From Bacteroides uniformis (lineage in GTDB: Bacteria; Bacteroidota; Bacteroidia; Bacteroidales; Bacteroidaceae): a stretch of DNA of 64,000 nucleotides. This document shows, piece by piece, positions 30,405 through 48,388 of this stretch. How positions within the stretch are numbered: the stretch's first letter is position 1; each line of letters begins with the position of its first letter. Position numbers and translations under genes: made by a program. The notes below the pieces were generated by a model. That model searched no databases. It was not told where the DNA came from and was given only the letters and a program-made list of their open reading frames with translations. Where the stretch lies: assembly GCF_025147485.1 (NCBI RefSeq), contig NZ_CP102263.1, forward strand, positions 2,369,501-2,433,500, read 5' to 3'.

Positions 30405-30432
30405 ATTTCTTGTTTTTAAAGTCGTTGATAAA

Positions 30433-31314
30433 TTACAATTTGTTCTTATGGCTTGTCCTGCTTGTTTTAGTAAATTCAGATCTGTACTCTTCTGACAGAC
30501 GGATATAATCCTTTTCGCTATATCCGGCCGTTCCGAACAGTTCATAATATCCGGGGAAGGGTTTTCTTTCCGTTTCCGGTATATGCGTGCTGGTTTCCTT
30601 ATGGCAACAGATGATGTGCCGGACAAACCGGTAGCACTTGCAAAGATCCGCCAGGATGGTGTACTCGTTGTCCGTATGAGGTTCATAATATCCGCAGGAG
30701 AGATTGACGCAGGATACTTCCAGCCCGTTCCTTTTCAATGCCGCCACATCCGTAGCCAGCCCCTGTGCAGGCTTGTAACCGTACCTCCGGGGATCTACTG
30801 CCGAAATGAACTCATTGGAGCAGAGCCTCATTCCGTTGATTTGTGTCACCATGTCCCCGTTCCCTTTCCGGTCGCACTGGATGACGAAACGGCAGTCGGA
30901 AAAGAAGGACATGTCGGCATGGCCGCTGCCTATGCATCCTATCTCCTCCTGTACGAAGAAGGCGCATTTCACCGCCTTGAAATCCTCCAGGCATTTCAGG
31001 CAGATCCAGATGCCGTTCTTGTCATCCGCGCCGATTCCGGCCATCCGTTTACGCTTGCGGTCATAGCCGACAATCATCGAGTCCGCCACAAGATGGGCTG
31101 CATAGGTGCCTGTCTTGCGCCGGTGTACCTCGTCCATGTGCGCCACGACACAGGGGTAGCTTTTCCGGTTGCCTTTGACCGCGTAGATGTTTCCGTGCCG
31201 GTCTTGCCGGAAAGGAATACCCATCCGCCTGAGTTCCCCGATGATGAACCCGGCCATCTTCCCCTCCTTGCCGGAGGGGGAGGAGATGTTGTAAAGAGCC
31301 ATTAATTTTTCCAT
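30433..31314 (-). CDS. M20/M42-like zinc peptidase
   Basis: The 293-residue protein has the metal ligands of co-catalytic zinc peptidases in order: H59 and D61 (V-A-H-M-D), D96 (G-A-D-D-K-N-G), the E-E pair at 122-123 (Q-E-E-I-G-C), D147 and H212 (E-P-H-T-D-N-E-Y). It begins with S-S-P-S-G-K-E, as M20/M42 peptidases do. It lacks a signal peptide, so it acts in the cytoplasm. The lid domain seems reduced. Its substrate and its reason for being on the element are unknown. Confidence 0.7.
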   Translation of the reverse strand: MEKLMALYNISSPSGKEGKMAGFIIGELRRMGIPFRQDRHGNIYAVKGNRKSYPCVVAHMDEVHRRKTGTYAAHLVADSMIVGYDRKRKRMAGIGADDKNGIWICLKCLEDFKAVKCAFFVQEEIGCIGSGHADMSFFSDCRFVIQCDRKGNGDMVTQINGMRLCSNEFISAVDPRRYGYKPAQGLATDVAALKRNGLEVSCVNLSCGYYEPHTDNEYTILADLCKCYRFVRHIICCHKETSTHIPETERKPFPGYYELFGTAGYSEKDYIRLSEEYRSEFTKTSRTSHKNKL

Positions 31315-31326
31315 GATACTGACTTT

Positions 31327-32562
31327 TCAGGAGATGAACAACTTTTCGATTTGCAGGTACCGTCTGAACTCCGGTACGGGACGTCCCTTCTTGAAGAGGA
31401 AGGACGGATATTTCTTTCCCTTGTATTCCGCGGACGTGCCTTTCAGTACTTTTCCGAATACGGTGGATATATAGAACATGTCCTGACAATTCTTGCAGAA
31501 TGCCGTATCCGGAAAGGAATGTATCTTTCCGCATTTGGGACATACATATTTTCTCCTGTTTGCGCGCCCTTCCGTGCTCCGGCAGGTGGCTATGCTCGTG
31601 TCGCCCTCCGTATTTCTCAGTTCCAGGTTACCGTCCGTCAGATGGAGGCTGTAGAACGTGTCGAGGTAAGGCACCCCTTTCTTGTGCCACCTGCAGGCGG
31701 GCACTTTCACCGTCAATGAAACCTGTATATTGTCTCCGGCCGCCCATTCCTGCCCCTCAATGGGATTCAGTACGGTGAAATCCGTTGTATGTGTATAATC
31801 GTTGTATCTGCGTCGCAACAGGATGCCCGCCTCCTGCGCCTGCTTGCGGATCAGTTCGGCGACGAATGCGTGTGAGGAATAGATGCGGTCCAGCAGGGAG
31901 GCGGCAATCGGTGTGTTTATTGATTTCCACAATGTTACCTCGTTCCATACGACAGCCCGTCCGAGTATGTTGTTGCTCTCGTCCCTTGCCACAAGGATTT
32001 TAGCGCCGGCGAAGTTGGTATAGAAGTCAGCGGCGTTGCGTGCCTTGTCCTCATACCGCATACAGGAACTGTGCAGGCTGGATGTGTCACTGTCGGAGAT
32101 GGGGCTGTAGTTGCTTTCCAGATAGGCTTCCATGAAGTCGTTCATGCTTTCATGCAGCCTGACCGTGACTTTGCTGTCCAATGAGAGAGAACTACAGAAA
32201 TAATTGATTTCGTCGGGTGAGTACTTGGGCAGGTTCTTGAACAGTTCCACAAACGTGGAGGGTTCCAGGTCTGTCCGGTTCTCCGGGAACCAGGGTGCCT
32301 GCGGGTTGTTCCGGTCCGGGAAACTGGGATGGGCCAGATCCTTGCTGCAGGCCGTGAACACGATTCGGATTTTCTTGAACGTGCCCGCTTCCGTCCGCTT
32401 GCGCTTGGTGGAGAAGCAGTTGTAGGTACCGCGTATGATCTCTTCCACCGGTACGTTCTTTTTTACTTCCGAAAGGATGTCTTTGGCTATCACACTTCCG
32501 TTTTCCGCCGCATGCACCAGGCGGGATTTCAATTCATTGCTAACATTCAGTTTCATAATCAT
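31327..32562 (-). CDS. unknown protein with C-terminal zinc ribbon
   Basis: The 411-residue protein has no recognised catalytic domain. Its middle part reads S-S-C-M-R-Y-E-D-K-A-R and I-L-V-A-R-D-E-S-N-N-I-L-G-R-A-V-V-W, a pattern also seen in phage and plasmid proteins. A zinc ribbon (C-P-K-C, then C-K-N-C) lies near residues 345-365. Starts at 32562 and 32556 are both possible. It is in the minus-strand unit with the peptidase (12-base gap). Confidence 0.55.
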   Translation of the reverse strand: MIMKLNVSNELKSRLVHAAENGSVIAKDILSEVKKNVPVEEIIRGTYNCFSTKRKRTEAGTFKKIRIVFTACSKDLAHPSFPDRNNPQAPWFPENRTDLEPSTFVELFKNLPKYSPDEINYFCSSLSLDSKVTVRLHESMNDFMEAYLESNYSPISDSDTSSLHSSCMRYEDKARNAADFYTNFAGAKILVARDESNNILGRAVVWNEVTLWKSINTPIAASLLDRIYSSHAFVAELIRKQAQEAGILLRRRYNDYTHTTDFTVLNPIEGQEWAAGDNIQVSLTVKVPACRWHKKGVPYLDTFYSLHLTDGNLELRNTEGDTSIATCRSTEGRANRRKYVCPKCGKIHSFPDTAFCKNCQDMFYISTVFGKVLKGTSAEYKGKKYPSFLFKKGRPVPEFRRYLQIEKLFIS

Positions 32563-32594
32563 TCGTTTTATTGTTTATAAATTCTGCCATGTTT

Positions 32595-33335
32595 TTATGG
32601 CAATTGTTTCTTGTCCGGCTGCATTTGGCGCAATTTCTCTTTCCGCTTTCTGAGCAGGTCAACGGACATGTTCCTGCTTGTCCGATATTCCTCCTCGCTC
32701 ATCCGGCGAATGGAAGGAATGCCCGTCTGGGTCAGTGTATGGTTTACCATCCAGCCGTCCATGAAGTTTTCGGTGCAGAGGCTGTCATGGTGGATGACTT
32801 CCCCCACGCAGCCGTGAATGAGCATATTGCATATGGTCATCAGGCAACAGGTACGGTTGACATCTTCCGCGACAAGATAATTACCCAGGTGGCGTACATG
32901 ATATGCCAGCAGGAGACGCCCACTTCCGCAGGTAGGGTCGTTTATCCTCTGCCCGGTCTTTTTTCCGTCCGTTTCCGTACACATTACCATCAGGTCGCAG
33001 ATATGTACGGGAGTGAAGAACTGCCCTTGCGCCTGTTGTCCCTTTCTGGAACTGAGCGCCATGAAAAGGTCTCCTAACGCGTCATACCAGGATGCGGCCT
33101 CCAGCTGCTTCTGCATGAGCCGCACCCATTCCGCAAACATTTTCATGAATGCGGCATTCTGCTGCCGCTTGTACCTCCAGTCTTTCAGCGGAGGAGCGCC
33201 CGGTGAGAATCCGTGTATGACGTAACGCAGGAAATCTGTGAACACGTTCATCGGATCGTACCCGTTCAAGCCTGCAAACTCACAGATTGTCTTTTCAAGT
33301 GGCCGGACTTCTGGGGATGTCTCATAGCGTGTCAT
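32595..33335 (-). CDS. N6-adenine methyltransferase-like protein lacking motif IV
   Basis: The 246-residue protein has the SAM-binding half of HsdM-type methylases: F-F-T-P at 106-109, D-P-T-C-G-S-G-R at 133-140 and E-D-V-N-R around 158. Where the catalytic N-P-P-Y/F is expected after the H-H-D-S-L segment (182-186), it reads M-V-N-H-T. The protein also ends soon after, without a target-recognition domain. It is therefore probably not an active methylase, or a diverged one. It overlaps the next upstream gene by 14 bases. Confidence 0.65.
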   Translation of the reverse strand: MTRYETSPEVRPLEKTICEFAGLNGYDPMNVFTDFLRYVIHGFSPGAPPLKDWRYKRQQNAAFMKMFAEWVRLMQKQLEAASWYDALGDLFMALSSRKGQQAQGQFFTPVHICDLMVMCTETDGKKTGQRINDPTCGSGRLLLAYHVRHLGNYLVAEDVNRTCCLMTICNMLIHGCVGEVIHHDSLCTENFMDGWMVNHTLTQTGIPSIRRMSEEEYRTSRNMSVDLLRKRKEKLRQMQPDKKQLP

Positions 33336-34143
33336 ATTGTTCTGTTTTTTTATAGAAGGTTACTGTATGTCCGTTATGGTCTGTCCGTATCTTGACGGGG
33401 GAGACGCCAAGGAAAAAGAGGTGCGTTTCCGCTTTCAGCATGTTCCATTCCCATGTGGGAAGTTCCTTCCATTCCATACGGTATGCCCAGAGTATGAACA
33501 GACCGGGACGGAATCCGTTGAAAAGTTCTCCGTGCAGAATCCCGACCAGCCGCTCCAGTTCTTCCCGCGAGTAAAGGGTGAATGACTCATTCCGATAGAT
33601 AAAGGCATCAGCCGGTTCAATATCCGGCTGACACTCGATGATGTATCTCGTCCATTCTTTTGTGGTGTACTTTCCGTACAGAGGATCGGGTTCCGTGTAT
33701 TTCCATGCCCTGACGAATGTGTGGAAGAGGACGGCACCGTTCCTGTGCCTTCCGGTATGCCCCCACATCCGGAACTGTTTGCTGCGTATGCCATCGGGAA
33801 GCAGCAATTCCGGACCGGTTATAACCCAAGGGCCTCCTTCCGTATTGTAACCGGTACACTTTTCATTTTCATGGCAGAAAGGTGTCTGTGGGAGAAGGCA
33901 AATATGGACTTCCCGGTCATCGCCCCTTTCAATGTGTGCCTGCGGATAATAGTCACCGCCACGGGTAGTATAAGTGACGACATCCCCTGCGGTCGGTAAA
34001 CTGACTCTTTCCCTGTCCTCCCGCATCCTTGAAATCAGCCGGTTCACCTTCTCCACGTCGCACTCCTTTATGGAACAGGCACACCCTTCATGCCTGTTGA
34101 GCAGAGTCAGGCTTTCCAAATCATAAAAATTACCGTACTTCAT
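33322..34143 (-). CDS. unknown accessory protein of the conjugative element
   Basis: The 273-residue protein is rich in aromatic and charged residues and has no recognised domain. The start at 34143 (M-K-Y-G-N-F-Y-D-L) is preferred because it gives a 14-base overlap with the upstream gene, the same overlap as at its other end. No signal peptide or membrane segment is seen. It was not recognised beyond being a typical Bacteroides mobile-element hypothetical. Confidence 0.5.
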   Translation of the reverse strand: MKYGNFYDLESLTLLNRHEGCACSIKECDVEKVNRLISRMREDRERVSLPTAGDVVTYTTRGGDYYPQAHIERGDDREVHICLLPQTPFCHENEKCTGYNTEGGPWVITGPELLLPDGIRSKQFRMWGHTGRHRNGAVLFHTFVRAWKYTEPDPLYGKYTTKEWTRYIIECQPDIEPADAFIYRNESFTLYSREELERLVGILHGELFNGFRPGLFILWAYRMEWKELPTWEWNMLKAETHLFFLGVSPVKIRTDHNGHTVTFYKKTEQYDTL

Positions 34144-34408
34144 ATTGAGAGCGTTTTTGTTGGTACAATTTGACCTGGCGGGCAACCATATCACAGAACT
34201 TCTGTCCGTTCTCCTTCTCGCTTCTGAAATAGGCAATCATGTCCCAGAGATTCTGATTGAAGTAGCCGGTCCATTTTTCGTAGCAGTGACTTCCATAGAC
34301 CTTTCCGAACGTTTCCTCGAAAAGTGCGGGAGTCAGCCCTTCATCCCCATGGTGGTTGTATTGCCACAGAGAGACAAGCAGCAGCCGGTTATAATCCAGT
34401 GTTTCCAT
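34130..34408 (-). CDS. small unknown accessory protein
   Basis: The 92-residue protein is rich in aromatics (Y-E-K-W-T-G-Y-F-N-Q-N-L-W-D). It is the first gene of the minus-strand unit that runs to 29250. Its leader carries copy 1 of the three-way-junction element. No family is recognised. Confidence 0.5.
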   Translation of the reverse strand: METLDYNRLLLVSLWQYNHHGDEGLTPALFEETFGKVYGSHCYEKWTGYFNQNLWDMIAYFRSEKENGQKFCDMVARQVKLYQQKRSQYEVR

Positions 34409-34435: not shown

Positions 34436-34600
34436 GCCTACATGGGTAGGCATTTTTATTTCTTGGTGTCTTTCCGGCCTGTTTGCCGGGGATTGCGACA
34501 AGGCTTGGCGAAAGAAAATACCGGAGCGAAGCGAGGATGATTTTCTTTCAGCCAACCCAGCCCCTGAAAGGGGCCGCCTTGCGCAATCAGCCCGGGAAAC
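34436..34600. repeat. three-way-junction element, copy 1
   Basis: The outer stem has its left arm at 34481-34504 and its right arm at 34575-34600. A long inner hairpin pairs 34505-34519 with 34540-34555, and a short hairpin GCCCC-tgaaa-GGGGC lies at 34560-34574. A separate hairpin, GCCTAC/GTAGGC (34436-34451), followed by CATTTTTATTTC, lies on the gene side. On the plus strand a -7-like TATCTTTA (34604-34611) follows. The element forms the leader of the minus-strand unit starting at 34408. Confidence 0.7.
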
Positions 34601-34624
34601 GGCTATCTTTACAGCAAGAAATGA

Positions 34625-34663
34625 AAAAGCAGACCTCGGATTCTCTGTTCTGAAGTCTGCTTT
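34625..34663. terminator. terminator downstream of the DUF4120-like gene
   Basis: AAAAGCAGAC pairs with GTCTGCTTTT, a 10-bp perfect stem with a loop of about 17 bases. It has A-rich and T-rich ends, so it can work in both directions. It lies 27 bases behind the minus-strand gene at 34690-34980. Confidence 0.65.
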
Positions 34664-34689
34664 TCGGTCATTGTCGAGTCTCATGTTTT

Positions 34690-34980
34690 TCAGGTATGTA
34701 TCTGCCATCCGTGGAACGGCTGCAATGTTACGGCAAACGATCTGTCAGGTATTCCATGATAGAGCAGACCTCCCACGATACCTGTCCTTCCGTCGGGATA
34801 GCGCTGTGTAAAGCCGAACGAGTACGGGGCATGGTCGTAGTAGAGTGAGATTTCGCAGGGACAGTCAGGGTTTTCTTCCCAGCTTTTCAACCGTTCCAGA
34901 CATTTTTGGAGCGAGGTGTCACCGATGGATTCGGCATAGCGCCTTACATTCTCGAAATGTTCTTCATTCAGGATTTTCAT
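34690..34980 (-). CDS. DUF4120-like small protein
   Basis: The 96-residue protein starts M-K-I-L-N-E-E-H-F-E-N-V-R-R-Y-A-E-S-I and ends L-Q-P-F-H-G-W-Q-I-H-T, as remembered for DUF4120 proteins of Bacteroides mobile elements. Function unknown. The longer open frame upstream (to 35592) passes through the repeat element and a divergent gene and is not real. It is a single-gene unit with its own leader element (copy 2) and terminator. Confidence 0.55.
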   Translation of the reverse strand: MKILNEEHFENVRRYAESIGDTSLQKCLERLKSWEENPDCPCEISLYYDHAPYSFGFTQRYPDGRTGIVGGLLYHGIPDRSFAVTLQPFHGWQIHT

Positions 34981-35010
34981 GACTTTTGTATTTTTATCTG
35001 TTAAACACGT

Positions 35011-35173
35011 CCGGCTCCGGGAGCCGGTATTTTTATTTCTCGCCTGCCTGACAGTCCCGTGGCCGTACCCGCAAGGTTTGGCGAAAGAAAATACCGCAGC
35101 GAAGCGAGGATGATTTTCTTTCAGCCAACCCCGCAGGGGCCTGACCTTGTACGGGTACACAGGACACGGGACT
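35011..35173. repeat. three-way-junction element, copy 2
   Basis: The outer stem pairs AGTCCCGTG (35053-35061) with CACGGGACT (35165-35173), and GTACCCG-CAAGG (35065-35076) with CCTTG-ta-CGGGTAC (35145-35158). These arms differ in sequence from copies 1 and 3 but still pair. The inner hairpin (35078-35092 with 35113-35128) is almost identical to copy 1. The small hairpin is CCCC-gca-GGGG. A hairpin CCGGCTC/GAGCCGG (35011-35027) followed by TATTTTTATTTC lies on the gene side. It is the leader of the minus-strand gene at 34980. Confidence 0.7.
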
Positions 35174-35282
35174 ACCTTTGCAGGGTGGGAAATAAAATAT
35201 GCGGTTGTTCCTTGTTGCGGGATCTTGTATGGCTTCCGGAGATAATCTTCCTGATTTGTTCGCCATTGCCGGACAAATGGTG

Positions 35283-35290
35283 TATTTTTG
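35283..35290 (+). promoter_or_regulatory. -7 box for the gene at 35311
   Basis: TATTTTTG matches TAnnTTTG, and a TTG lies at a suitable upstream distance (CATTGCC near 35262). The start codon is 21 bases downstream, so the leader is very short. A second match, TACCTTTG (35173-35180), directly adjoins element copy 2. Confidence 0.5.
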
Positions 35291-35310
35291 CAGTTTCTAA
35301 TTTCAGGATC

Positions 35311-35655
35311 ATGGAAAACTATATAAAGAAAGCGGCGGATGCTTTCCTTGTGGAGCGTCCGTATGGTATGCGTGTGGATTACAGGAAGAAAGGATTCGTG
35401 CTGTTTAACCGCAACCTGAACGTATTGGGCAATGCGGAGCATGCCCGTCTGGAAGAGCTGCCTCTGGAGCGGTTCAATGTGGAGGAGATTCCGTTGGATG
35501 GTGAAATTGTGGAGGAACACGCGGGATTTACCGATGTATTCTTCTATACCGATCTGACCAGCCCCTATGCCGGATATGCGCTGAATTTGCAAAAGCTCAA
35601 GGCCTATAACCGGTTTATGTTTCCGTTGGCGATGGCGCTGAACCGTAAGTTGTGA
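35311..35655 (+). CDS. unknown 114-residue protein, lone plus-strand gene in the accessory block
   Basis: The protein begins M-E-N-Y-I-K-K-A-A-D-A-F-L-V-E-R-P-Y-G-M-R-V and is soluble, mixed alpha/beta, without a known domain. It is the only plus-strand gene in a 13-kb minus-strand block, has its own -7 box (35283-35290) and is closed by a hairpin. It may be a regulator or an independent cargo; nothing in the sequence decides. Confidence 0.55.
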   Translation: MENYIKKAADAFLVERPYGMRVDYRKKGFVLFNRNLNVLGNAEHARLEELPLERFNVEEIPLDGEIVEEHAGFTDVFFYTDLTSPYAGYALNLQKLKAYNRFMFPLAMALNRKL

Positions 35656-35669
35656 GTCCGGAAGCCGGC

Positions 35670-35712
35670 AACGGTAACAGCCGCATGGAGCACGCCGTTA
35701 CCGCCAGGTTTT
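35670..35712. terminator. terminator between convergent accessory genes
   Basis: CGGTAACAGC near 35675 pairs with GCCGTTACCG near 35697 apart from one mismatch, and GTTTTATTATTTG follows. It lies between the plus-strand gene at 35311 and the minus-strand gene ending at 35714. Confidence 0.5.
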
Positions 35713-35713
35713 A

Positions 35714-36424
35714 TTATTTGCCCTTTCTTGTTGTTATAAATGCAAGATAATCGCCCACGGCCTTATGGCATCCGGTAAAGTCCGGAGTCCGGAGACCTTT
35801 GATTTTCCGGTAACTGACGGTTCCGTTCCTGTCAATGCCTCTTACATGCCTGTTGAATGTCCCTTTGGTTCTGATATGGATGTCAAAACCGTCCCTTCCG
35901 GTGATTTCAAGGAACATTCCTCCCGTGATCCGTTCCCCGTCCAGGAATTTCTGTTTCTGTTCATCGAGCAGCCGCTGATATTGCTCTTCCCGCGCTCTGC
36001 GCTCTTCCGCCTCTTTCTCCTCCTGTTCCCTGCGTTTCTGTTCCTGCCTCCTTTTGTATGCCTCACGGGCTTGCACCAGGGGGGTGGTGTCAAGTCCGAG
36101 AGCCTCGAACACGCGGACGGAGATCAACCTGACAAAGGCTCCTCTTTCCGCGCCCTGAAGCGTATCCGCGATCCAGTTCCTGCAATAGGCGGCAGTTTCG
36201 TCCCTGCGGTTTTCTCCGTTGAGGAACCGGCGTGAATACTGCCCGCTGGAGAAATAAACGTTTTCAATCCGGCAGACCACATGGAAACAGTCATCGTCCT
36301 CATTCCCATATTCGTTCTTTCTAGACAGGGAGAGATATACATTCTCGGCGTACGGTTCCAGTTCCATATAAGGAGCCACGACGGTATTCCCGTCAGACCT
36401 GTACTTGAATACTTTTGCTTTCAT
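35714..36424 (-). CDS. unknown protein with central coiled coil
   Basis: The 236-residue protein has a strongly charged helical centre (repeats of Q-E-K-R-R-E-Q-E-E-K-E-A-E-E-R-R) between two compact ends. The start at 36424 is preferred: it follows the upstream stop by one base, while the alternative at 36460 would overlap it by 35. No family recognised. It is the last gene of the minus-strand unit that begins at 42482. Confidence 0.5.
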   Translation of the reverse strand: MKAKVFKYRSDGNTVVAPYMELEPYAENVYLSLSRKNEYGNEDDDCFHVVCRIENVYFSSGQYSRRFLNGENRRDETAAYCRNWIADTLQGAERGAFVRLISVRVFEALGLDTTPLVQAREAYKRRQEQKRREQEEKEAEERRAREEQYQRLLDEQKQKFLDGERITGGMFLEITGRDGFDIHIRTKGTFNRHVRGIDRNGTVSYRKIKGLRTPDFTGCHKAVGDYLAFITTRKGK

Positions 36425-36425
36425 A

Positions 36426-37127
36426 CTATCGTTCAGTTTGTCGGTTGTTGCATATTTCATCTATAATCTCTTTCCCGCTTCTTTCACCCTTCAGGAAGGC
36501 AAGGAAGCGCCTCAAAAAGAGCCGGGCACAGTCAGTTCCCAGCTGGGAGCTTTCACCGTCTTTGGTAGCGCATACCGCAAAACGCCCCAGTCCGAAACTG
36601 TCCTGTTGCGGTACGATGTGGTAAGACAAGTCCTCGCTTGCGTTGATGTGCAACCCACGACGGAAAACATAGAAAGTTTTCGGGATTCTTCTGTCGGTAT
36701 CGATTTCCATACGCTTGTAACCGTGATGTTCCAATAACCGGACCAGTTCCCTGTTTGTCGGAATTGTATGTCCGATCCAGTCCGGCCAGCTTATATTTTC
36801 TATTGTATGTCCGTAATTGTCATATAATATGTCGAACTGTTCCTGGTATTCATCGTAAAATTCCCCGTTCCCGTTGCACATTTTCTCCAAAGCGATGCCG
36901 TTTTTACGGACAAGGGCAAGGTCGCCCAGTCCGCACGCGATTTCATTGAGCAGCGTGCGTTCCTCATCCCTGTCCTTTGCCGTTCCGTAAATTCTAAGCC
37001 GGGAATACCGGTGTAGCGCCGAACGGGACGGCATATCCAGTTTTTCCCATATCCCATCGTTTCCTATAGCCTGTCTGGTGTTTTCCGGAAGTCCGTACCA
37101 CCACTTGTCCAAATTGTTTGTATCCAT
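36426..37127 (-). CDS. unknown accessory protein
   Basis: The 233-residue soluble protein starts M-D-T-N-N-L-D-K-W-W-Y-G-L-P-E-N-T-R and carries no recognised motif. It is tightly packed in the minus-strand unit (10 bases after the J-domain gene). No signal peptide, membrane segment or metal site is seen. Confidence 0.5.
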   Translation of the reverse strand: MDTNNLDKWWYGLPENTRQAIGNDGIWEKLDMPSRSALHRYSRLRIYGTAKDRDEERTLLNEIACGLGDLALVRKNGIALEKMCNGNGEFYDEYQEQFDILYDNYGHTIENISWPDWIGHTIPTNRELVRLLEHHGYKRMEIDTDRRIPKTFYVFRRGLHINASEDLSYHIVPQQDSFGLGRFAVCATKDGESSQLGTDCARLFLRRFLAFLKGERSGKEIIDEICNNRQTER

Positions 37128-37137
37128 AATTTCTGAA

Positions 37138-38163
37138 TCAGATTGTTTTTAAATTCTGTTTTGAGTACCATGCCTGATACGCGGCGGCATACTCCTGACG
37201 TTCCCGTTCCAGGGAATTTCTCATCTCAGGGGTGTATCCGAGCAGGCGGATGTATCCTCCGTTATAGCCGGTGAGTTCGCACCTTATTCCGGCTTCCTCC
37301 AGTTTGTCGATGCGTTTTTGGGCCATTTTTGCGCTTGAATATTCCTTCGGCCAAAAATAGACTTCGCCCCGTGAGCCGAAACAGTCTTCCCCCAGAATTA
37401 TTTCCCCGGCATACTTCCGGCTTTCGATGAAGCCGAAACGCGCTTTGCCCAATGCCCGGCGCATTGCCTCGTGTGCCGGACCTTCCGGATGCTTGAATAT
37501 CTCCGGCTTGTCTTTGCTGCCGAGTTTGGGCGGTTCCACCTTGTACGGCTGTTTGTAACTTCCGATTCCGAGCGTCAGGTAAAAGTTGGTGTGAAAATAG
37601 TCCGTCATGGGGTCGCTGTCATCGAAATTGTACGACATGATGAAATCGCAGATATTCACCATTACATCCTTTGCCCTGTCCGTCAAGGATTTGTCTGAAT
37701 GGATATGATGGTGGTTGACATCGCCTTGAACTTTTCCGGACTCTTTGGTGAACGCCTCGAAATCCGCTTTCATCAACCGGATATGGATGGAGTGGCAATT
37801 CTCCCGTCTGACAGAGAACTTGTATCCCGGATAGGTCTCCTTGAGCCATGCCCGTACCAGTCCCACGATTTCAGGAGCGTGCTGCCCCTTGTAATTGCGG
37901 CCTTTCCAGCGGTATTCGTTATACACATACTTGGTGTATTCCTTTGCCGTGGCTCCCGGATAGTCATATTCATATCCGGTTGAGGTCGAGGGAATATCCG
38001 GTTTTTCTTTCCAAGCCTCAAAAAGCCTTCCAAACTCGGTGTTCACCTGTTGCATGATTGCGGTGTCACCACCCTTGTCCGGGTGGTGCTCCAATGCCAG
38101 CCGGCGGTATTCTTTCTTCAAGTCCGCCAGAGAGTGTATGTTCTGAAAATAAGTCATAGCCAT
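37138..38163 (-). CDS. J-domain protein of the accessory block
   Basis: The 341-residue protein starts with a J domain: helix L-K-K-E-Y-R-R-L-A-L-E-H, then H-P-D at 27-29 in H-H-P-D-K-G-G-D. J domains stimulate the ATPase of Hsp70 (DnaK). The C-terminal half contains A-K-M-A-Q-K-R-I-D-K-L-E-E-A-G-I-R, a helix-strand motif seen in proteins of conjugative elements. It may recruit host DnaK for a transfer or anti-defence step; this is inference. Starts at 38163 and 38157 are both possible. Confidence 0.65.
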   Translation of the reverse strand: MAMTYFQNIHSLADLKKEYRRLALEHHPDKGGDTAIMQQVNTEFGRLFEAWKEKPDIPSTSTGYEYDYPGATAKEYTKYVYNEYRWKGRNYKGQHAPEIVGLVRAWLKETYPGYKFSVRRENCHSIHIRLMKADFEAFTKESGKVQGDVNHHHIHSDKSLTDRAKDVMVNICDFIMSYNFDDSDPMTDYFHTNFYLTLGIGSYKQPYKVEPPKLGSKDKPEIFKHPEGPAHEAMRRALGKARFGFIESRKYAGEIILGEDCFGSRGEVYFWPKEYSSAKMAQKRIDKLEEAGIRCELTGYNGGYIRLLGYTPEMRNSLERERQEYAAAYQAWYSKQNLKTI

Positions 38164-38170
38164 AAGTTTT

Positions 38171-38380
38171 TTATGCCCCTGCGAGGCGGTTGATAAAATA
38201 TTCCCGGTAGTCAAGGTCAAGACCGAGGTTGAGACAGGCCGTTTCCATGTCATCTTCTCTCAGGTCGTCCGCCTCCTGCAATTCGCGCAGGTACCGGATT
38301 TCGGAGTCCAGGTATTCCTGTGCTTCCGTTTGACCGCAACCGCATGAGTTGCAGATCAGACTGATAATGTTTCCCTGCAT
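38171..38380 (-). CDS. small acidic unknown protein
   Basis: The 69-residue protein starts M-Q-G-N-I-I-S-L-I-C-N-S-C-G-C-G, with three cysteines close together, then an acidic helical part. It overlaps the upstream gene by 25 bases and is followed by the J-domain gene after 7 bases. The longer frame upstream of 38380 is not used. Confidence 0.45.
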   Translation of the reverse strand: MQGNIISLICNSCGCGQTEAQEYLDSEIRYLRELQEADDLREDDMETACLNLGLDLDYREYFINRLAGA

Positions 38381-38655
38381 GCTGTTTGATTTTTTATGTT
38401 TCTGTTCCTGTTTCTGAGGCCTCGTCCGTCGTATATCGAGACGGCCCGTTCCACCAAAAGCCTGCGGTTGTCTTCCGAAAGTTCCAGATAGAACCGTTCC
38501 GCCGCGCCGAATGTGCCCTTGTCTGTCGCCACGCACCATTTTTCCCAGAAATGCGGGTACATGCCGCCATACACGGTTTTGCATTCCTCCTCGCTCCAGG
38601 CGTTCCACATGTAGTAGAAGAAACTGGAGACGGTATTTTCCGCTTGATATTTCAT
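38356..38655 (-). CDS. small unknown protein
   Basis: The 99-residue protein (M-K-Y-Q-A-E-N-T-V-S-S-F-F-Y-Y-M-W-N-A-W) is rich in aromatics and looks helical. Its start overlaps the end of the upstream gene by 4 bases (ATGA), which supports translation from 38655. No family recognised. Confidence 0.5.
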   Translation of the reverse strand: MKYQAENTVSSFFYYMWNAWSEEECKTVYGGMYPHFWEKWCVATDKGTFGAAERFYLELSEDNRRLLVERAVSIYDGRGLRNRNRNIKNQTACRETLSV

Positions 38656-39251
38656 GGTTCTTCTATTTGTGATTCTACATTGTTTGTTTCTCTCAGTTGA
38701 TGCCACACAGCCTCATACATCTCATGAAGCCAGTCTATGTTCTTCGCGCCGAGTTCAAACGGGCTGTGACACTGCACCTCGTCACCGCTTTCTTTCTCTT
38801 CGGCAAGGACGGTCAGGCTGTCCGCCGTTACCCGGAGTCCTGTCACCCTGCATTCATATGGTTCTCCGTTCTTGCCAAACCATATCACCCAGACCGGATC
38901 ATAATCCTCTTCCGGAAGACGAATTTCTTTCACGCAGTGAGCATGGAGCAACTGCCGTATCGCGTCGATGATGTCCCCCCGCAGTTCCTTGATCCTGCCG
39001 CTGAAATCAACGGCTTCTGACGGTAAACTTCCTTTTCCGCCTCTTTCCTGCAAGGAGAGAATCTGCGTGTCGGGATGGATACAGAAATCCCAGTCCAACA
39101 CTTCATCGTCATCGCGTGTCGTGTGGATATCGCCGCCCAAAACAAGACCGCAATCGTCATTTACCATTCTTTTTGCTTCATCGCGGTCTTCTGCCGCTAC
39201 CGTGTAAGTGCCCTCGAAGGAATACCTTACTCTTATGTCATATCTTTTCAT
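38652..39251 (-). CDS. unknown protein of the accessory block
   Basis: The 199-residue protein starts M-K-R-Y-D-I-R-V-R-Y-S-F-E-G-T-Y-T-V-A-A-E, a short beta-sheet opening often seen in mobile-element hypotheticals, and continues as an acidic soluble protein. A start at 39263 is also possible. The 134-base gap upstream (39252-39385) shows nothing recognisable. Confidence 0.5.
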   Translation of the reverse strand: MKRYDIRVRYSFEGTYTVAAEDRDEAKRMVNDDCGLVLGGDIHTTRDDDEVLDWDFCIHPDTQILSLQERGGKGSLPSEAVDFSGRIKELRGDIIDAIRQLLHAHCVKEIRLPEEDYDPVWVIWFGKNGEPYECRVTGLRVTADSLTVLAEEKESGDEVQCHSPFELGAKNIDWLHEMYEAVWHQLRETNNVESQIEEP

Positions 39252-39385
39252 GATTCTTTCCATTTGATTGTTGATACCAGATTCATTGCCCGGAAGGATT
39301 ACCGGATATTCAATATTGCGCTAAAGGCATGTGGGTCAAGCCTGTAAAACGTCGGAAGGTTAAGTGTGACCATCGGGTAGCTTAC

Positions 39386-39796
39386 TCAGCCGCTCTGACG
39401 TCTATAACCTGTATCCTCAGCCAATTTGTTAGACAGAAGGAACTCCATGGCATCAGGATTGTTGTTGATGTCCACGAATGCCCTGTCAGGCAGTGAGAAT
39501 GCCGCCTTATCTTCTAAGTTGACCGTCAGGACCGTGTATATCTCATGGGTCACGGGATCTTTCAGAGACAATGCCGGCCAGCCGTTATGGTACATTTCAA
39601 TCACGATTGAGAGACGGCTTTCCTGATACAGGAAAGTCTCTTCCATGGACGGATGGTCGCATTTGGCAATTTCAAAATCATCCTCCCCTTTGGTAAATGT
39701 CACCATCGGATAGGATACATCGACAAAACATTCCTCTTCCCGGTAGCAGAGATGTTCTTTTCCCTCTGAACGGATTATAGCCAATCGGGTGTTCAT
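39386..39796 (-). CDS. DUF4313-like protein
   Basis: The 136-residue acidic protein starts M-N-T-R-L-A-I-I-R-S-E-G-K-E and contains H-N-G-W-P-A-L-S-L-K-D-P-V-T-H-E, patterns remembered for DUF4313 proteins of Bacteroides mobile elements. Function unknown. The start at 39796 is preferred over 39850, which would read through an inverted repeat (39820-39835). Confidence 0.5.
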   Translation of the reverse strand: MNTRLAIIRSEGKEHLCYREEECFVDVSYPMVTFTKGEDDFEIAKCDHPSMEETFLYQESRLSIVIEMYHNGWPALSLKDPVTHEIYTVLTVNLEDKAAFSLPDRAFVDINNNPDAMEFLLSNKLAEDTGYRRQSG

Positions 39797-39846
39797 ATTC
39801 GTAACTGGTTTTAAAATTATTGACTTGCAAGTTAATTGGCCGGCAT

Positions 39847-40098
39847 TCACCTGCCTGTTTCTTTAAACGTGTGATTGTCACCGCCTGCGGACATTTGGGA
39901 GAGTTGCTGTCTCACCGCCTTGATTTTCCCAATCAGTTCGTCCTCCCTTCGGAATGAGGGGGTACATTTGGTACGCCTCATCCCGGCTCCCCAGGGGATG
40001 CCGCCGCATACTTTTCTCAGGCGTGCCTTTTCGCTTTCCAGGGCCGACTCCAGACGGGCCAGCCTGCGTCGCAACGATTCTTCGGTCACAGTTCTCAT
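39847..40098 (-). CDS. small basic helical protein
   Basis: The 83-residue protein has two charged helices (E-E-S-L-R-R-R-L-A-R-L-E-S-A-L-E-S-E-K and E-L-I-G-K-I-K-A-V-R-Q-Q-L) around a glycine-rich loop. It could be a small coiled-coil or DNA-associated protein. No family recognised. Confidence 0.45.
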   Translation of the reverse strand: MRTVTEESLRRRLARLESALESEKARLRKVCGGIPWGAGMRRTKCTPSFRREDELIGKIKAVRQQLSQMSAGGDNHTFKETGR

Positions 40099-40167
40099 GA
40101 TTTCATTGTTTTTTTAGTATGGTGACGGGTCGGAAAGACAGTCACCATACCGTCGTTATGTGTCACG

Positions 40168-41055
40168 TTATATTTTAGCTTTTTCCCTTTTGATGCCTCT
40201 CAGGACGTACAACAGGTGCAGGAACAGCTCCCTGTCGTAAATCCGGAAGAAGAACGGCTCGCCTGTTTCCCTGACCGTTCCGGTAAAAGACACGGACTCC
40301 CGGTTCACGGGATATTGGAGGAAGTTGCCGTTTGCCAGCAGGGTGTGCTTTTTCTTCATCACTTCGCCTAGGAACTTGTCCATATCGTCGTTTCCCTCAT
40401 AGCCGGAGAAGTAGAGGAAATGATGACGGCGCAGGCTTCGCAGGATTTTGGCGGTTTCCAGCCTTACATCCCTGCCTGACGATTCGTCCGTTCCTCTCAT
40501 CAGGTTGCAGATGAACTTCTTCTCGCCATTTATGTCAAGAAACAGATAAGGAACTATAATTATAGAGGCATGCCGTGCGTGGTCAGAGATGACCATCGGC
40601 TTTTCTTTCAGGATGTCTCCTTTGAAGGTAATGTTCCGGTAATGGTTGTCCATCTGCCGTTCCAGTTCCTTTCTTGGCGTGGTAACGGAGCGGAGTCCCG
40701 TGAAGTAGCGTCCGCCCGCCCGGAAGCAGAACCGGTAGATGTCCGCATGATAAGGCTCTCCCAGGAAAAAGAAATTCCGGGTATGGCGGATGGGGGGCAA
40801 GACATCCATGTAGTCGAAATATCTTTCTTCCGTAATCTCACTGAACGGGGCGCAGAGGGATTGCAGGTGGATGCGTATCATCTTGCGGACGGTATTTCCG
40901 GACACGGCTGTGAGGTACGGGTTCTTTTCCCTGTCCCTCAGTTCCTCCAGTGTCTCATGATGGTAGTCGCCGTGTATTCCGTCAGACATGGTGGTCACGC
41001 AGCTGCCGTCAAAACTGCGTGAATCGACTACGAATTTCAGTTTGTCGTTATTCAT
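40168..41055 (-). CDS. unknown 295-residue accessory protein
   Basis: The soluble protein is rich in Arg, Phe and Tyr (F-F-F-L-G-E-P-Y-H-A-D-I-Y-R-F-C-F-R) and has no recognised domain or metal site. It lies 3 bases after the next upstream gene, so both are in one unit. The gap 40099-40167 is short and empty. Confidence 0.5.
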   Translation of the reverse strand: MNNDKLKFVVDSRSFDGSCVTTMSDGIHGDYHHETLEELRDREKNPYLTAVSGNTVRKMIRIHLQSLCAPFSEITEERYFDYMDVLPPIRHTRNFFFLGEPYHADIYRFCFRAGGRYFTGLRSVTTPRKELERQMDNHYRNITFKGDILKEKPMVISDHARHASIIIVPYLFLDINGEKKFICNLMRGTDESSGRDVRLETAKILRSLRRHHFLYFSGYEGNDDMDKFLGEVMKKKHTLLANGNFLQYPVNRESVSFTGTVRETGEPFFFRIYDRELFLHLLYVLRGIKREKAKI

Positions 41056-41058
41056 GGT

Positions 41059-42201
41059 TCAGATGTTTTGAAGGTTCAACACTCTCTTGGCGGCACTGAG
41101 GGCATTGGAGGTGAGCTGCCGTTGCCATGCCTTGTTTCTGGGTGACCAGCGGAATCCGGAGGATTTCAGTTCCTTTCGTCTGTTGTCTTCGGGAATCCTG
41201 TCAAACAGGATCTGAAGGCGGTCTTCCCCATAGTTCCATACAAGTGTCCCGCCCTCGAACGGCACTTCCTTGTTTTCCCGGCTTTGCACCGCTTTCAGCC
41301 TTTCGCGCATCCGTTCCGCAAGTTCCGGCAATTGGAAGAATTTGTTTCTCGGGGTGATGACGGGTTTCCTTAGCCTTGCGTTATATTCGGAAATGAAGTC
41401 CACGGCCCTGCGGACGATTTCCACTTCCCCGTGATTGGCGAAGGTGGATACCTTGTTCAGGATGCTGCTGACGAACAGGGCACGGTTATAACCCCGGCAT
41501 TGTCCGGTGTCAATCCCGTGGATGGTGTCGGCGCTGCTCTTGATGTCGCGTTTGAGCGTCTGCCATGCCTTTTCCAGTTTTTCTTCCTCCGGTCGTGCGG
41601 CTTCCTTTTTTCGTCTGACGGCTTCAAGAACCTTTTGCCGCCAATTGCGGAACTCCTCGTAGCGGTTCTGATAGCTTCTGTTCGTATTCTCCTGCCTGTG
41701 GTAATCAAATCCGCCTCGTCCCGTCACCATCGGGTTGGCGCAGCGTGAGAGGGCCGAGAGCTGGGCGGATAGCTTTTTCCGGTAGGCGGCGATGTATGTA
41801 TCCCGTTCCTCTTCCTGCATGAGTTGCAGGTCGTTGTGCAGCTCCTCCCCGTAAATCATGATGTCCGTCTCGCCACGAATCTCCGGGTCGAAGGAACTCC
41901 AGGCGTATGCGTCGCAAGCCTGTTTCCACATATCCTCCAGATAGCCAGGATGTTTGAACGCTACGGCTTCCCAGTCTTTGAAGTCCCTGGAATGCAATTC
42001 ATTCCGATCTTCCGGATTTCCGTACAGGTGTACATAGTTGCCCGTTCCATGATGCTCCTTTCTGAAATGGAACGGTACGGGAGGATGGTCCGTACCCTTT
42101 TCCCGGATCATCGTGACCCGGTGCGCATTCTCTGCGGTAAGGCCCGTTACTTGTTCTTCCCGGACCTTTGCTGTTGTTGTTTCAGTCATAACCGTTGCCA
42201 T
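41059..42201 (-). CDS. conjugative-element protein with a polyvalent-protein-type C-terminal domain
   Basis: The 380-residue protein has a central part reading A-L-S-R-C-A-N-P-M-V-T-G-R-G-G-F and N-R-Y-E-E-F-R-N-W-R, patterns seen in phage and plasmid proteins. The C-terminal domain of about 60 residues contains L-K-S-S-G-F-R-W-S-P-R-N-K-A-W-Q-R-Q-L-T, which recurs in large polyvalent proteins of mobile elements, some of them anti-restriction factors. A role in protecting incoming DNA is possible but not shown. Confidence 0.6.
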   Translation of the reverse strand: MATVMTETTTAKVREEQVTGLTAENAHRVTMIREKGTDHPPVPFHFRKEHHGTGNYVHLYGNPEDRNELHSRDFKDWEAVAFKHPGYLEDMWKQACDAYAWSSFDPEIRGETDIMIYGEELHNDLQLMQEEERDTYIAAYRKKLSAQLSALSRCANPMVTGRGGFDYHRQENTNRSYQNRYEEFRNWRQKVLEAVRRKKEAARPEEEKLEKAWQTLKRDIKSSADTIHGIDTGQCRGYNRALFVSSILNKVSTFANHGEVEIVRRAVDFISEYNARLRKPVITPRNKFFQLPELAERMRERLKAVQSRENKEVPFEGGTLVWNYGEDRLQILFDRIPEDNRRKELKSSGFRWSPRNKAWQRQLTSNALSAAKRVLNLQNI

Positions 42202-42482
42202 TCATAAATTATTTCTACCAGTTCTTCGTCCGCCAGTTTTTGGATTTCCTCGTCCGAGCAATAGCAGGCGATTTCCTCGTCCAGCTTGAAAGCTGCCGGG
42301 TCAAGGCTTCTGATGCCGTCCAGCAGTTCCGGCACCAGGCTGTCTGCGGCAACCGTATAGCTTCCGTCCCTGCCTTGCACCTTCCGTGCGGGATAGCTCC
42401 TTTCCCGATAAACCAACATTCTCATTTTCGGATTGGCACCCTGCTGTCCTTTGTGGACTTTGCTTGTTGTCTCTCTGTTCAT
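42186..42482 (-). CDS. small unknown protein, first gene of the long accessory unit
   Basis: The 98-residue protein has a basic first half and an acidic helical second half (C-Y-C-S-D-E-E-I-Q-K-L-A-D-E-E-L-V-E-I). It overlaps the following gene by 16 bases. Its leader holds copy 3 of the three-way-junction element. No family recognised. Confidence 0.5.
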   Translation of the reverse strand: MNRETTSKVHKGQQGANPKMRMLVYRERSYPARKVQGRDGSYTVAADSLVPELLDGIRSLDPAAFKLDEEIACYCSDEEIQKLADEELVEIIYEWQRL

Positions 42483-42513
42483 ACCTTCATTTTTTTAGTT
42501 TGTTTGACATGAT

Positions 42514-42678
42514 CGGCTCCGTGGAGCCGGTTTTTCGGTTTCTTACTTGCCGGACTGTCCTTTGCCGGGGATTGCGCAAGGCTTGGCAAAAGAAAATACC
42601 GCAGCGAAGCGAGGATGATTTTCTTTTAGCCAACCAGCCCCTGAAAGGGGCCGCCTTGCGCAATCAACCCGGCAAAGG
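42514..42678. repeat. three-way-junction element, copy 3
   Basis: CCTTTGCC (42559-42566) pairs with GGCAAAGG (42671-42678), then GGG with CCC, then GATTGCGCAAGGC (42570-42582) with GCCTTGCGCAATC (42653-42665). The inner hairpin (42583-42597 with 42618-42633) carries an A-T pair where copies 1 and 2 have G-C. The small hairpin GCCCC-tgaaa-GGGGC is at 42637-42651. CGGCTCC/GGAGCCG (42514-42529) lies on the gene side, and a plus-strand TATATTTG (42681-42688) follows. Confidence 0.7.
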
Positions 42679-42753
42679 GCTATATTTGCAGGTAAGAAAT
42701 TGAAAGAATGGCTGGGATTTTCAATTTGTCGGATACAACATGTAATAAGTATA

Positions 42754-43702: not shown

Positions 43703-45147
43703 TATTGGTGTCCGGTAAAAGTTTGACCGAATCAAAAATACAAGGCTGAATCCCCTCTCGGAGGTCCAGCCTTTTTCGTTACCTTTGTTTCTGCTAAAAA
43801 ATAAATCAATAACGATGAACAAAGGTAGTCATTTCAACGGACAGCCGGCATATGGTCAGCTGATAAATTTGCTGGACAAGTCAAAAATTCTCCAAATCAG
43901 TCAAGAAAAGGGCGGCGAACGGTATGTCAAACACTTTGACGCCTGGCAGCATCTGCTGATAATGTTGTATGCCGTGATCAAACGGTTCGATTCGCTGCGG
44001 GAAATCACGGACTCGATGTTCCCTGAAGCGAGAAAGCTTGCCCATCTTGGGATAAGCATGATGCCCCGGCGCAGTACTCTGTCTGACGCAAATGCACGCA
44101 GGTCAGAGGGAATCTTTGAGGCAATCTATCGCGACCTGTACAAGACATACCGCAACGAACTTTCATCGGACAGCCGAAACAATCCATCTTCCAGTTGGAT
44201 AAACCGGCTGCAGATTATCGATTCGACGACAATCAGCCTGTTCTCCAACCTTATCTTCACGGGAGTCGGACGCCATCCGAAGACGGGGAAGAAGAAAGGC
44301 GGCATAAAGGTCCACACCAATATCCATGCAAACGAGGGAGTTTCTTCAGATATCAGGTTCACATCTGCCGCCACTAATGACAGTTTCATGCTCAAGCCGT
44401 CAAATTACACAAGCGGAGACATCGTTGCCCTGGACAGGGCCTACATCGATTACGCCAAGTTCGAGGAGCTGAGCCGGGCAGGTGTCATATATGTCACCAA
44501 GATGAAGAAGAATCTTGTCTATGAGGTTTCTGCTGATACCGATATACATGACAGAAAGTGGGTTGATGGCACTTCGGGAACGCCATGTGACATTCACGAA
44601 GAAGGTCAAAGATGGCGACGATATAAAGCACCATGCACGCATAGTCACCTACGTCGACCAAAAGAAAAGAGGGGCCAAGCTCATATCCCTCCTCACAAAC
44701 GACATGGAGATGAGCGCCGAGGATATTGTGGCAATCTACCGGAAACGCTGGGAGATAGAGCTGTTGTTCAAGCAGATAAAGCAGAACTTCCCCCTTCGGT
44801 ACTTTTACGGCGAAAGCGCCAATGCCATCAAAATCCAGATATGGATAACCCTCATCGCCAACCTTCTACTGATGGTGCTGAAGAAACGCATCAAACGCAG
44901 CTGGAGCTTCTCGGGATTGGCAACAATGGTCAGAATCATGTTAATGTATTACGTCAACCTCTACACCTTCCTCGAAGAACCCGACAAAGACTGGTCAAAA
45001 CTGGTAGCCGAGGCAGAATCGCCACCCAAGGAACTCCTGCTCTTTGGATAGAGGGGCTTACCAGACAAAACAAACACCCGCAATGCCTATCAAGTGACAC
45101 TGCGGGTAGGCGAATCGTACTACACTAAACTTTAGCGGACAGCAATG
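43703..45147 (+). mobile_element. IS4-type element nested in the left IS1380 copy
   Basis: The 1445-base element has terminal repeats that share TGTCCG followed by an A-rich TAAAAGTTT or TAAAGTTT. It is flanked by a 9-base duplication ATTTGAAAA (43694-43702 and 45148-45156), exactly at the point where the intact IS1380 copy reads through. It carries one transposase gene with a frameshift. Confidence 0.8.
43815..45051 (+). pseudogene. frameshifted IS4-type transposase
   Basis: The first frame (start M-N-K-G-S-H-F-N) holds the first Asp (I-D-S-T-T) and second Asp (A-L-D-R-A-Y-I-D). Near 44545 the coding sense moves to the +1 frame, which holds the Y-R-K-R-W-E-I-E-L-L-F-K motif with the catalytic Glu and ends at 45051. 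Joined, the two parts give a DDE transposase of about 412 residues. No slippery heptamer is evident at the shift, so a mutation is more likely than programmed frameshifting. Confidence 0.75.
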
Positions 45148-46597
45148 ATTTGAAAACGAAAGTCTTAATACGACTCGATATGGATAGGCCAAAATCCTTA
45201 ACGTTTAATTTTCGGATGATTGTTTTGTAGAAGTTCCTTATCAATGCAGTCATCAGCAGGTATACTGCATTTTCTGCCATGAATGACTTTGGCAAATGTT
45301 TCCATCCAAACCCGTTGTTCATGTCATCGAGGATTCTTTCCTTCCCACCGCACAGGTTATAGAACTCTACGACATCCCTTATGTCGGATTCGAAATCATT
45401 GGTAAGGATACACCGGTAGGTATATTCTCCTTCCCATAGCTCCCGTATGTCATCTGTTCTTCTTTGTCTTTGGATGACAAGACGGTATGGTTTCCCCTTC
45501 CACTTTTCTACGACAATCGAATTCAGCTCGAACCTGATTCCGTTGATCTCCTCAGCCTTCCATCCCCTGAGGGCGAACATGTCATCGTAAAAAGCGGAGC
45601 ATCTGTTGGCTCTGATATAGAAGTACTTGCAATGGGCCTTGACGGTATCTACAATCTCTTCGGAGCACGACCCACAATCCATACGAGCTCTATTTATATG
45701 AATGCCGTTACATTCCAGCCTGGTGAAGATTCTTTCCAATGTACACTGCTGGCAGAACCGGACATTCGTGTTGCCATCCCGATTTTCAATGCCGACAATA
45801 TGGTCACCTATAACGGCCACTCCCGGGCTGTATCCTGTGAACTTCTTGTATGTACGTTTGGCATCATACTTCTCCGTTTCAATGAACTGGTGGTCAAAAT
45901 CCAGATCGTAACCCTGCTCCTGACATAATTCTCCGGTAGCAATGAGAGACTTGACCAACAATTCGTTCATTGTGTCAGCTGTATTGAAGTCATATGATTT
46001 ACCTGAGTCTGGAGATGAATACGTTATGTTGTCTGTAGTCAGTTCTTTTATGGCGCGAAGAATCGTGTCTGCGCTGCAGGTTTTAAGTTTGGGATGCAGG
46101 GAAAGATGGGGCATGAGATGAGTGGATATGTCTTCAATGCACGAGCCGCCACAGAAGAATACGCACATGAGAGAACGGATGATTTCACTGTATTGGTAAC
46201 CATAGGTTCTGCTATGCAGTCCTAATGTGGAGTCGATTACGTCCGATAAAAGAGCATCAAATTGCTCCATGATTGAAAATATTCCGCCAAAAGGTGTGAT
46301 TGAATCGAATTTTATTTGTACTTTAGCCATGTCTGCTGAAGATTGGTTTGATTTTTATTGCAACACGAAGTTAAGTGAATCTTCTGACATGACAAAGCAC
46401 TGGGTAATACATTACTACTCAGTGCTTTAAATTATTCTTGTACAAAAGTGTTGCGGAAATTAGGTATATCAACAATTGAGGAAGCGTTATGCTTGTTTTG
46501 TTGTGACTCCACTCAAAATGCGGTGTTCCGGTTTCACGCTTCCATGTATTATCAGGTTCTTCCAAGAAACCTGGAAGGCGTAAAATAATCCACATTT

Positions 46598-47965: not shown

Positions 47966-48116
47966 GGCTTTTAGCGGATAAACCTCAATCAGTCATTAGA
48001 ACGAGAAAAGTAAAGCGACTGACTATTTTTATTCGTTCTAACGACCGAATTGGGTTAAAAGAGACAAAATGGGCGAGGAAGACCACTGAGCTTTCAGCCT
48101 ATTTTGTGACTTTCAC

Positions 48117-48388
48117 TTATAGTCTAAAACGATATAGCATTAATGAATTGTCTTCCTCGTCCATATTGGGTATGATATACGAATAATAATAGGGTGCCAT
48201 ATATCCCATTACTCTAAAATTCGTAGGAACGGATACATCTGCAATGAGCTTACCTTCTTTATAAATTTGCAGCCCATCTTTTTCTATATCCTTCTTTTTA
48301 TACGATCTGAATAAAGATTGATTGCTGATTACGTGTGTTGAAAATAGTTTAGGATATCTTTTGTCCGCCTGACTACTCTAATGCTATC
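48117..48388 (-). pseudogene. C-terminal remnant of a six-bladed beta-propeller-like protein
   Basis: The minus-strand frame ends at a TAA at 48117-48119 and reads F-R-V-M-G-Y-M-A-P-Y-Y-Y-S-Y-I-I-P, then L-M-L-Y-R-F-R-L. This resembles the end of Bacteroides beta-propeller lipoproteins. Upstream of about 48388 the frame meets stops. The rest of the gene is gone, so this is a fragment of the donor chromosome picked up by the transposon. The assignment is tentative. 48389-48553 holds a possible -7 box (TACTTTTG near 48452) but no gene. Confidence 0.45.

Follow-up and report, generated by a model that had tools for sequence, protein, structure and literature searches.

Hairpins with a Bacteroidota-like promoter box at the heads of operons in a Bacteroides uniformis conjugative element: candidate single-stranded-DNA promoters

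Three copies of one large hairpin stand in front of three different minus-strand gene units in a 64,000-nucleotide (nt) stretch of the Bacteroides uniformis genome (GCF_025147485.1, contig NZ_CP102263.1, positions 2,369,501–2,433,500; hereafter the window), within an integrative and conjugative element (ICE). Much of the gene transfer among gut Bacteroidales is carried by ICEs and, to our knowledge, little is known about how these elements survive the first minutes within a new cell. What does the same fold do at the head of operons of different content? A sequence-only reading had proposed a family of regulatory RNAs, or of DNA structures, that co-regulates accessory genes. Our analysis sides with co-regulation and with the DNA option, and a strand bias of stem mismatches together with a promoter box on the plus strand argues against an RNA structure in the minus-strand leader. 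The three hairpins are likely to be single-stranded-DNA promoters that work like Frpo of plasmid F.

The complete folded elements occupy the plus strand at 34453–34627 (copy 1, from its DNA fold and match to the core pattern), 35031–35197 (copy 2) and 42533–42705 (copy 3, both from their DNA folds) and head the minus-strand units starting at 34408, 34980 and 42482. Folded as DNA over 161–166 nt, they reach −49.2, −44.5 and −54.4 kcal/mol, respectively. Sequence and folds bear out the earlier description of each copy as an inner hairpin, a small hairpin and an outer stem; the outer arms of copy 2 differ in sequence with their pairing kept, and where copies 1 and 2 have a G-C pair in the inner stem, copy 3 has A-T. 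What had been missed is that the outer structure extends past an internal loop holding a promoter box, which brings the element to about 170 nt. The right arms carry a −33 element, CTTG, placed by sequence and a spacing rule (34578–34581, 35146–35149 and 42655–42658, plus strand), and the −7 boxes, likewise on the plus strand, are TATCTTTA at 34604–34611, in the internal loop of copy 1, TACCTTTG at 35173–35180 and TATATTTG at 42681–42688. The second small hairpin reported close to each start codon is present in all three leaders (34436–34451, 35011–35027 and 42514–42529, minus strand, seen as plus-strand DNA folds). These short hairpins of the predicted leaders vary in sequence and are conserved in position.

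We next examined how widely the element occurs. The GTDB species collection has 104 stretches with the core pattern; among the 80 listed by title, 78 are Bacteroidales by name and 2 are metagenome-assembled genomes called Clostridium/Clostridiales, and the named hosts include Bacteroides, Phocaeicola, Parabacteroides, Barnesiella, Prevotella, Alistipes, Tannerella and Muribaculaceae. The pattern occurred in 4 of 393 genomes sampled evenly across the order (≤3 mismatches) and in 47 of 398 genomes of the family (≤2 mismatches). A phage origin was also considered, and the viral_contigs collection has 9 stretches with the core. After exclusion of own-genome duplicates and of copies with N or near ends, 98 distinct copies were kept, 39 of which share <85% identity with one another (the non-redundant set). 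Of these, 37 were aligned (L045 and L060, in which no box was found, were excluded, and the boxless L022:1841-2050 was retained). The RNAalifold consensus has 28 pairs, and a double change is seen at least once in 14 of them. In 500 column shuffles, no shuffle was as high as the alignment in cells paired (94.6% versus 82.5% shuffled), covariation score (0.355 versus 0.132) or double-change cells (132 versus 35.5), and sliding the partner columns by 1–3 removed most of the covariation signal. Pairs showing any double change were not exceptionally numerous (14 versus 12.7 shuffled; 125/500). The compensatory changes first described from three copies thus extend to the larger alignment, and it is the fold that is kept.

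Covariation and placement before genes would also suit a regulatory RNA structure in a minus-strand mRNA leader, such as a riboswitch, attenuator or thermometer. To determine which strand folds, we folded the copies without G-T pairs and counted single in-stem mismatches, named on the plus strand. The 39 non-redundant copies had 28 G.T against 6 A.C mismatches (p = 2e-4), and all 98 copies had 55 against 11. The same excess appeared when the minus strand was folded (31 versus 5, 39 copies) and when the box was excluded (28 versus 5; per element, 19 G.T, 3 A.C and 17 ties), and simulated hairpins under symmetric mutation showed none (168 versus 182). The p values for the 39 copies (7e-5 to 9e-4) are a guide only, because the copies are related. 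Since a G.T wobble is tolerable in a plus-strand fold and an mRNA leader would give the opposite bias, the strand that folds is the plus strand. On this ground we rejected the minus-strand leader structure; moreover, Rfam, suggested earlier as a check, matches only rRNA and tRNA in the window and nothing at the hairpins, and the promoter words described below lie on the plus strand. Such a leader is very unlikely. A plus-strand non-coding RNA with the same fold, acting in cis or in trans, fits the G.T excess too.

For sigma-ABfr promoters of Bacteroides, the housekeeping type of Bacteroidota, the available text of PMC7366714 gives TAnnTTTG at −7 and TTTG near −33 as consensus. Most hairpin copies hold these words as TTG plus [T/G]AnnTTTG, the first T of the −33 TTTG not being kept (mostly CTTG). 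A relaxed box, [TGC]AnnTT[TC][GA], lies at the expected right-arm place in 95 of the 98 distinct copies. For the strict word we counted 94 of 101 deduplicated copies, 7 too near a locus end being dropped: TAnnTTTG is present in 53/94 right arms, no left arm has it on the other strand (0/94), and the reversed word gave 0/94. In 420-nt stretches, TTG paired with TAnnTTTG was found on the plus strand of 23/36 non-redundant copies and on the minus strand of 1/36 (shuffles, 13/720), a further point against an mRNA leader. The spacer from TTG to box measures 18–23 nt in 35 of the 36 copies (of 39 non-redundant) having both words. When the core hairpin and the CAAGG/C.TT helix are set aside, the columns that never vary among the 37 sequences are the A and the TT of the box. 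The box sits in the internal loop between two helices, with at least 5 of its 8 bases unpaired in 61/95 copies, and beyond the loop at least 8 distal pairs form in 85/95 copies, each folded as DNA.

These words leave little room for a plus-strand RNA: TAnnTTTG stands on the plus strand of the left arm in 1/94, an RNA from the conserved box would begin after the hairpin, and a group of sequence-unrelated hairpins (below) has the box in common but not the RNA sequence. We therefore give that explanation hardly any credence. In the duplex, the plus-strand promoter is directed rightward, away from the genes; on the folded plus strand, the same promoter is directed into them. As to a duplex promoter serving a right-hand gene, a plus-strand open reading frame (ORF) begins close by in 4/89 copies, and this candidate was rejected.

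In keeping with that direction, the start of a minus-strand gene falls between −10 and +35 nt of the element's left edge in 83/92 copies (31/34 non-redundant). The first ORFs fall into 15 blastp clusters, a few of them perhaps spurious ORFs, which indicates that different genes have come to stand behind a conserved element. A multicopy hairpin clustered in ICE-like regions could be a mobile repeat (miniature inverted-repeat transposable element or REP-like) or an attC-like recombination site scattered in ICEs. The nearly fixed gene distance disfavours a simple transposable repeat, a match to which the sequence-only reading had named as refuting it, and gene direction, strand polarity (below) and the recurrence of one architecture with unrelated sequences make any such repeat or site exceedingly improbable.

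Single-strand origins (sso) of rolling-circle plasmids and ICEBs1 are folded single strands recognised by RNA polymerase; they give primers and are not known to be tied to operon starts. The ICE hairpins, as proposed here, are folded single strands as well, but they are tied to operon starts. Could they nonetheless be origins of the sso/ssi kind, at which RNA polymerase primes the second strand and gene expression is incidental? Frpo has both roles and an sso is known in ICEBs1 (available text of PMC7736820 and PMC4595007, respectively), and the copies are spread round the ICE, some of them probably late-entering, and from there most of the strand could be served by a primer. Yet priming alone needs no near-fixed distance to a start codon, as seen in those 83 copies, and we consider this explanation improbable.

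We then related the hairpins to the conjugation machinery. The relaxase search covered 36 of the 47 core-positive genomes, and 94 copies were typed, 3 of them as having none (G681 lay outside the genomes searched, G628 had one weak match, and G648 had none within 150 kb among the matches listed). The hairpin is opposite in strand to the nearest relaxase match within 150 kb, among the matches listed, in 89 of 91 copies from 35 neighbourhoods, though weaker matches may lie nearer; the nearest match is weak in G513, and one G626 copy lies 134 kb from its relaxase. Both same-strand exceptions belong to G581, where a TraG lies close by on the strand of the hairpins, suggesting that the relaxase used there may belong to a neighbouring ICE.

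In an IncP-type origin of transfer (oriT), an inverted repeat is followed by 8 nt, after which the nick falls before a C. The window has the same layout on its plus strand, with an imperfect inverted repeat (13381–13418), a predicted nic at 13419–13427 (ACAACTTG^C, between 13426 and 13427) and a small hairpin 3′ of it (13427–13446). The core of the nic is kept in 30/30 relaxase loci, as ACA[A/C]CTTG^C upstream of mobA and 0–3 nt behind the inverted repeat; relaxase identity in these loci ranges from 100 to 51%, and some loci are nearly identical. The inverted repeat itself varies in sequence and has a low repeat score in about five of the 30. From its likeness to the IncP-type layout, the nick is predicted on the plus strand at 13426/13427, which would make plus the transferred strand. 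Near the mobA start, in window 13300–13360, a motif CGACTTTGGAG is kept in 29/30 relaxase loci.

These observations suggest the following sequence of events. In conjugative transfer, the ICE would enter the recipient as its single plus strand, where each hairpin would fold and rebuild a promoter for the Bacteroidota housekeeping RNA polymerase. A duplex bearing TTG (−33), an internal loop at [T/G]AnnTTTG (−7) and a downstream duplex would together resemble a ready-made open complex. The 3′ arm would act as non-template and the 5′ arm as template strand, and the polymerase would exit over the 5′ flank into the minus-strand operon. A transcript from the folded strand would start inside the element and carry the left flank only, so, by this geometry, most of the hairpin would lie outside the mRNA. 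Second-strand synthesis would then remove the hairpin, leaving duplex boxes that face away from the genes and operons that would be silent. As a conjecture, a late-entering hairpin could still prime the second strand over most of its length.

We next ran a scan that used just the box word and the fold, seeking strong hairpins with [T/G]AnnTTTG in an internal loop and applying an energy cut-off; without the cut-off, four control words gave 3–5 matches each. In 1.17 Mb of mostly ICE-linked DNA, the scan returned 102 matches (54 distinct), against 1 for the reversed word, 5 for the reverse complement (rc) and 0 for three other controls; the 102 are not an unbiased rate, because the 1.17 Mb includes loci chosen for holding the core. 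The rc-word matches are 3 distinct ones, and 2 of these are genuine elements seen from their other strand. Ordinary chromosome of the same genome (800 kb) gave no box-word match and one match of a control word (perm2), and 499 kb of ICE-region DNA, again chosen for holding the core, gave 14 box-word matches and none for the controls.

Thirteen distinct matches lacked the core pattern: by eye, 9 are core variants, 3 belong to a sequence-unrelated group (L016, L023, L049) and 1 is L202. The unrelated group has a member in the ICE studied here (C1:2347729) and relatives in L016, L049, L023, G553 and G567. Its members L199:12565-12770, L016:1367, L049:666, L023:6130 and L260:8983 have the same promoter loop, and the group shares both loop and strand with the core family, while the similarity of the L199, L016, L049 and L023 hairpins to the 39 core copies is no higher than that of shuffled DNA. 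In 5/5 loci, a gene of about 610 amino acids (aa) begins 353–391 nt away, counted from the scanned stretch's left end, farther than in the core family. L202:6476-6680 (C1:2191640) has a different loop, a 71-aa ORF 85 nt away and, at a distance of about 7 kb, another of the genome's relaxases; it was rejected as a third unrelated type and is a diverged core relative (score 49; shuffled best ≤30).

We compared the hairpins with systems already described. In the available text of PMC9849209 and PMC7736820, Frpo1/Frpo2 of plasmid F and ssi2/ssi3 of ColIb-P9 are transferred-strand hairpins that rebuild promoter boxes and occur several per conjugative element, each before an establishment operon read from the entering strand. 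In the ICE the folding strand is plus, and plus is also the predicted transferred strand. As in those systems, the ICE elements form a stable one-strand hairpin with boxes in the stem, but Bacteroidota words replace TATAAT/TTGACA. The operon starts at the place and on the strand expected for a promoter of that kind in the 83 of 92 copies given above, and the strand in question would be the one that enters. The ICE hairpins differ in forming a three-way junction and in residing in ICEs. No homology to Frpo/ssi emerged: blastn with copy 3 against 72,556 plasmids gave 4 records, 3 from Parabacteroides and 1 from Phocaeicola.

Samuel et al. 2024 (PMC11541004, available text) likewise report Frpo-like candidates in conjugative elements with anti-defence genes, retrieved by BLAST to known Frpo/ssi together with E. 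coli-type −35/−10 words. The string 'Bacteroid' has 0 occurrences in the main text of this survey, the main one on leading regions, and is absent from the main text of PMC12826799; the available part of a source on fragilis ArdA names no Bacteroides promoter. Among the titles and abstract starts of the matches listed, a literature search in which most subscription papers and bioRxiv preprints lay outside scope returned no description of a Bacteroidota element of this kind. Single-stranded promoters have been described on plasmids of E. coli and related bacteria; a Bacteroidales case would be new within the searchable literature.

Several observations weigh against the interpretation as single-stranded promoters. 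Plus is a putative transferred strand, named through a nic predicted by analogy. Frpo lies in the leading region that enters first, but the hairpins of this ICE lie 21–57 kb from the predicted nic: those of the window at about 21, 22 and 29 kb, behind the tra genes, and two further ones at 52 and 57 kb. For several ICEs whose relaxases are more distant (for example, G543, G577, G635, G636, G654 and G670), the only copies listed are about 12–20 kb on the relaxase side, a position that implies late entry. The distal stem is absent in 10/95 folds and omitted by the alignment consensus fold, and the box has ≤3 unpaired bases in 18/95 folds. In other ICE regions of the genome (160 kb round the relaxases at 28021, 231673 and 3186201), the scan found no box-word match. 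PADLOC and NCBIfam gave only weak matches on the downstream genes, whose anti-defence function is for the most part putative. Finally, in a control on the F plasmid, a long fold lies on the expected strand before ssb, and the −10 word proved too loose for scoring.

We think it probable that the hairpins form a class of their own, single-stranded promoters of Bacteroidales ICEs built on the Bacteroidota promoter, with at least two sequence-unrelated versions. Transcription from entering single strands would then have arisen repeatedly or diverged beyond recognition, and gut mobile elements would use it generally for their establishment.

The operons behind the hairpins may fit such a role. The copy-1 operon (29250–34408, minus strand) comprises a 92-aa ORF, a DUF4121 gene, an orphan N6 DNA methyltransferase (PF02384; 32595–33335), a 411-aa ORF and further ORFs, and its gene order is matched in an annotated P. 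distasonis record. The P. distasonis annotation also places a hypothetical protein across the hairpin L263:15928-16158, probably spuriously. Copy 2 precedes a DUF4120 gene (34690–34980, minus strand), and copy 3 an operon (35714–42482, minus strand) with a primase-like gene (41059–42201), a DUF4313 gene and one for a DnaJ/LPD29 protein. The primase-like protein matches the primase PHROG phrog_19458 (E 8e-22), the single PHROGs match among 8 downstream proteins; no solved relative was found for the two downstream proteins tried, of which it is one (searched by sequence). Elsewhere, the units behind the hairpins encode PRTRC_E, Prok_Ub, E2-like, ThiF, DUF4121 and DUF4313 proteins, and most first genes encode small proteins without assigned function. 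An orphan DNA methyltransferase, a primase-like protein and small proteins of this sort would suit establishment genes; on an E. coli plasmid, a DNA methyltransferase behind Frpo is reported to protect entering DNA (available text of PMC7736820).

The ICE as a whole spans about 91.9 kb in tRNA-Phe, of which the window covers part, and the 3′ end of the tRNA is duplicated at C1:2329490 and C1:2421356. A tyrosine integrase gene (50155–51519, minus strand) adjoins tRNA-Phe, and the right end of the ICE lies at the tRNA 3′ end. A minus-strand block (9564–13420) encodes the coupling protein, the relaxase (PF03432; 11637–12884) and one further ORF. The tra operon, which includes the TraG ATPase (19662–22379, plus strand), runs on the plus strand up to about 29.2 kb of the window, and the minus-strand units occupy 42.5 to 29.2 kb. 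Five hairpins were found in the ICE, all five on the plus strand; among them is a fourth core copy, 26.5 kb left of the window and on the same strand as the other three. Two further features of the ICE are an AbiH-family abortive-infection gene (PF14253, E 6e-29; 16391–17530, minus strand) within the tra region, before which the box-word and fold scan found no hairpin of the kind studied here, and three DDE transposase genes (43785–49976) between the copy-3 hairpin and the integrase.

If our interpretation is correct, the establishment genes of these ICEs would be switched on at once in a newly entered cell, and single-stranded transcription would extend beyond the plasmids of Enterobacteriaceae. 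The hairpins would then mark the genes that act first, offering a handle for finding new anti-defence and establishment genes.

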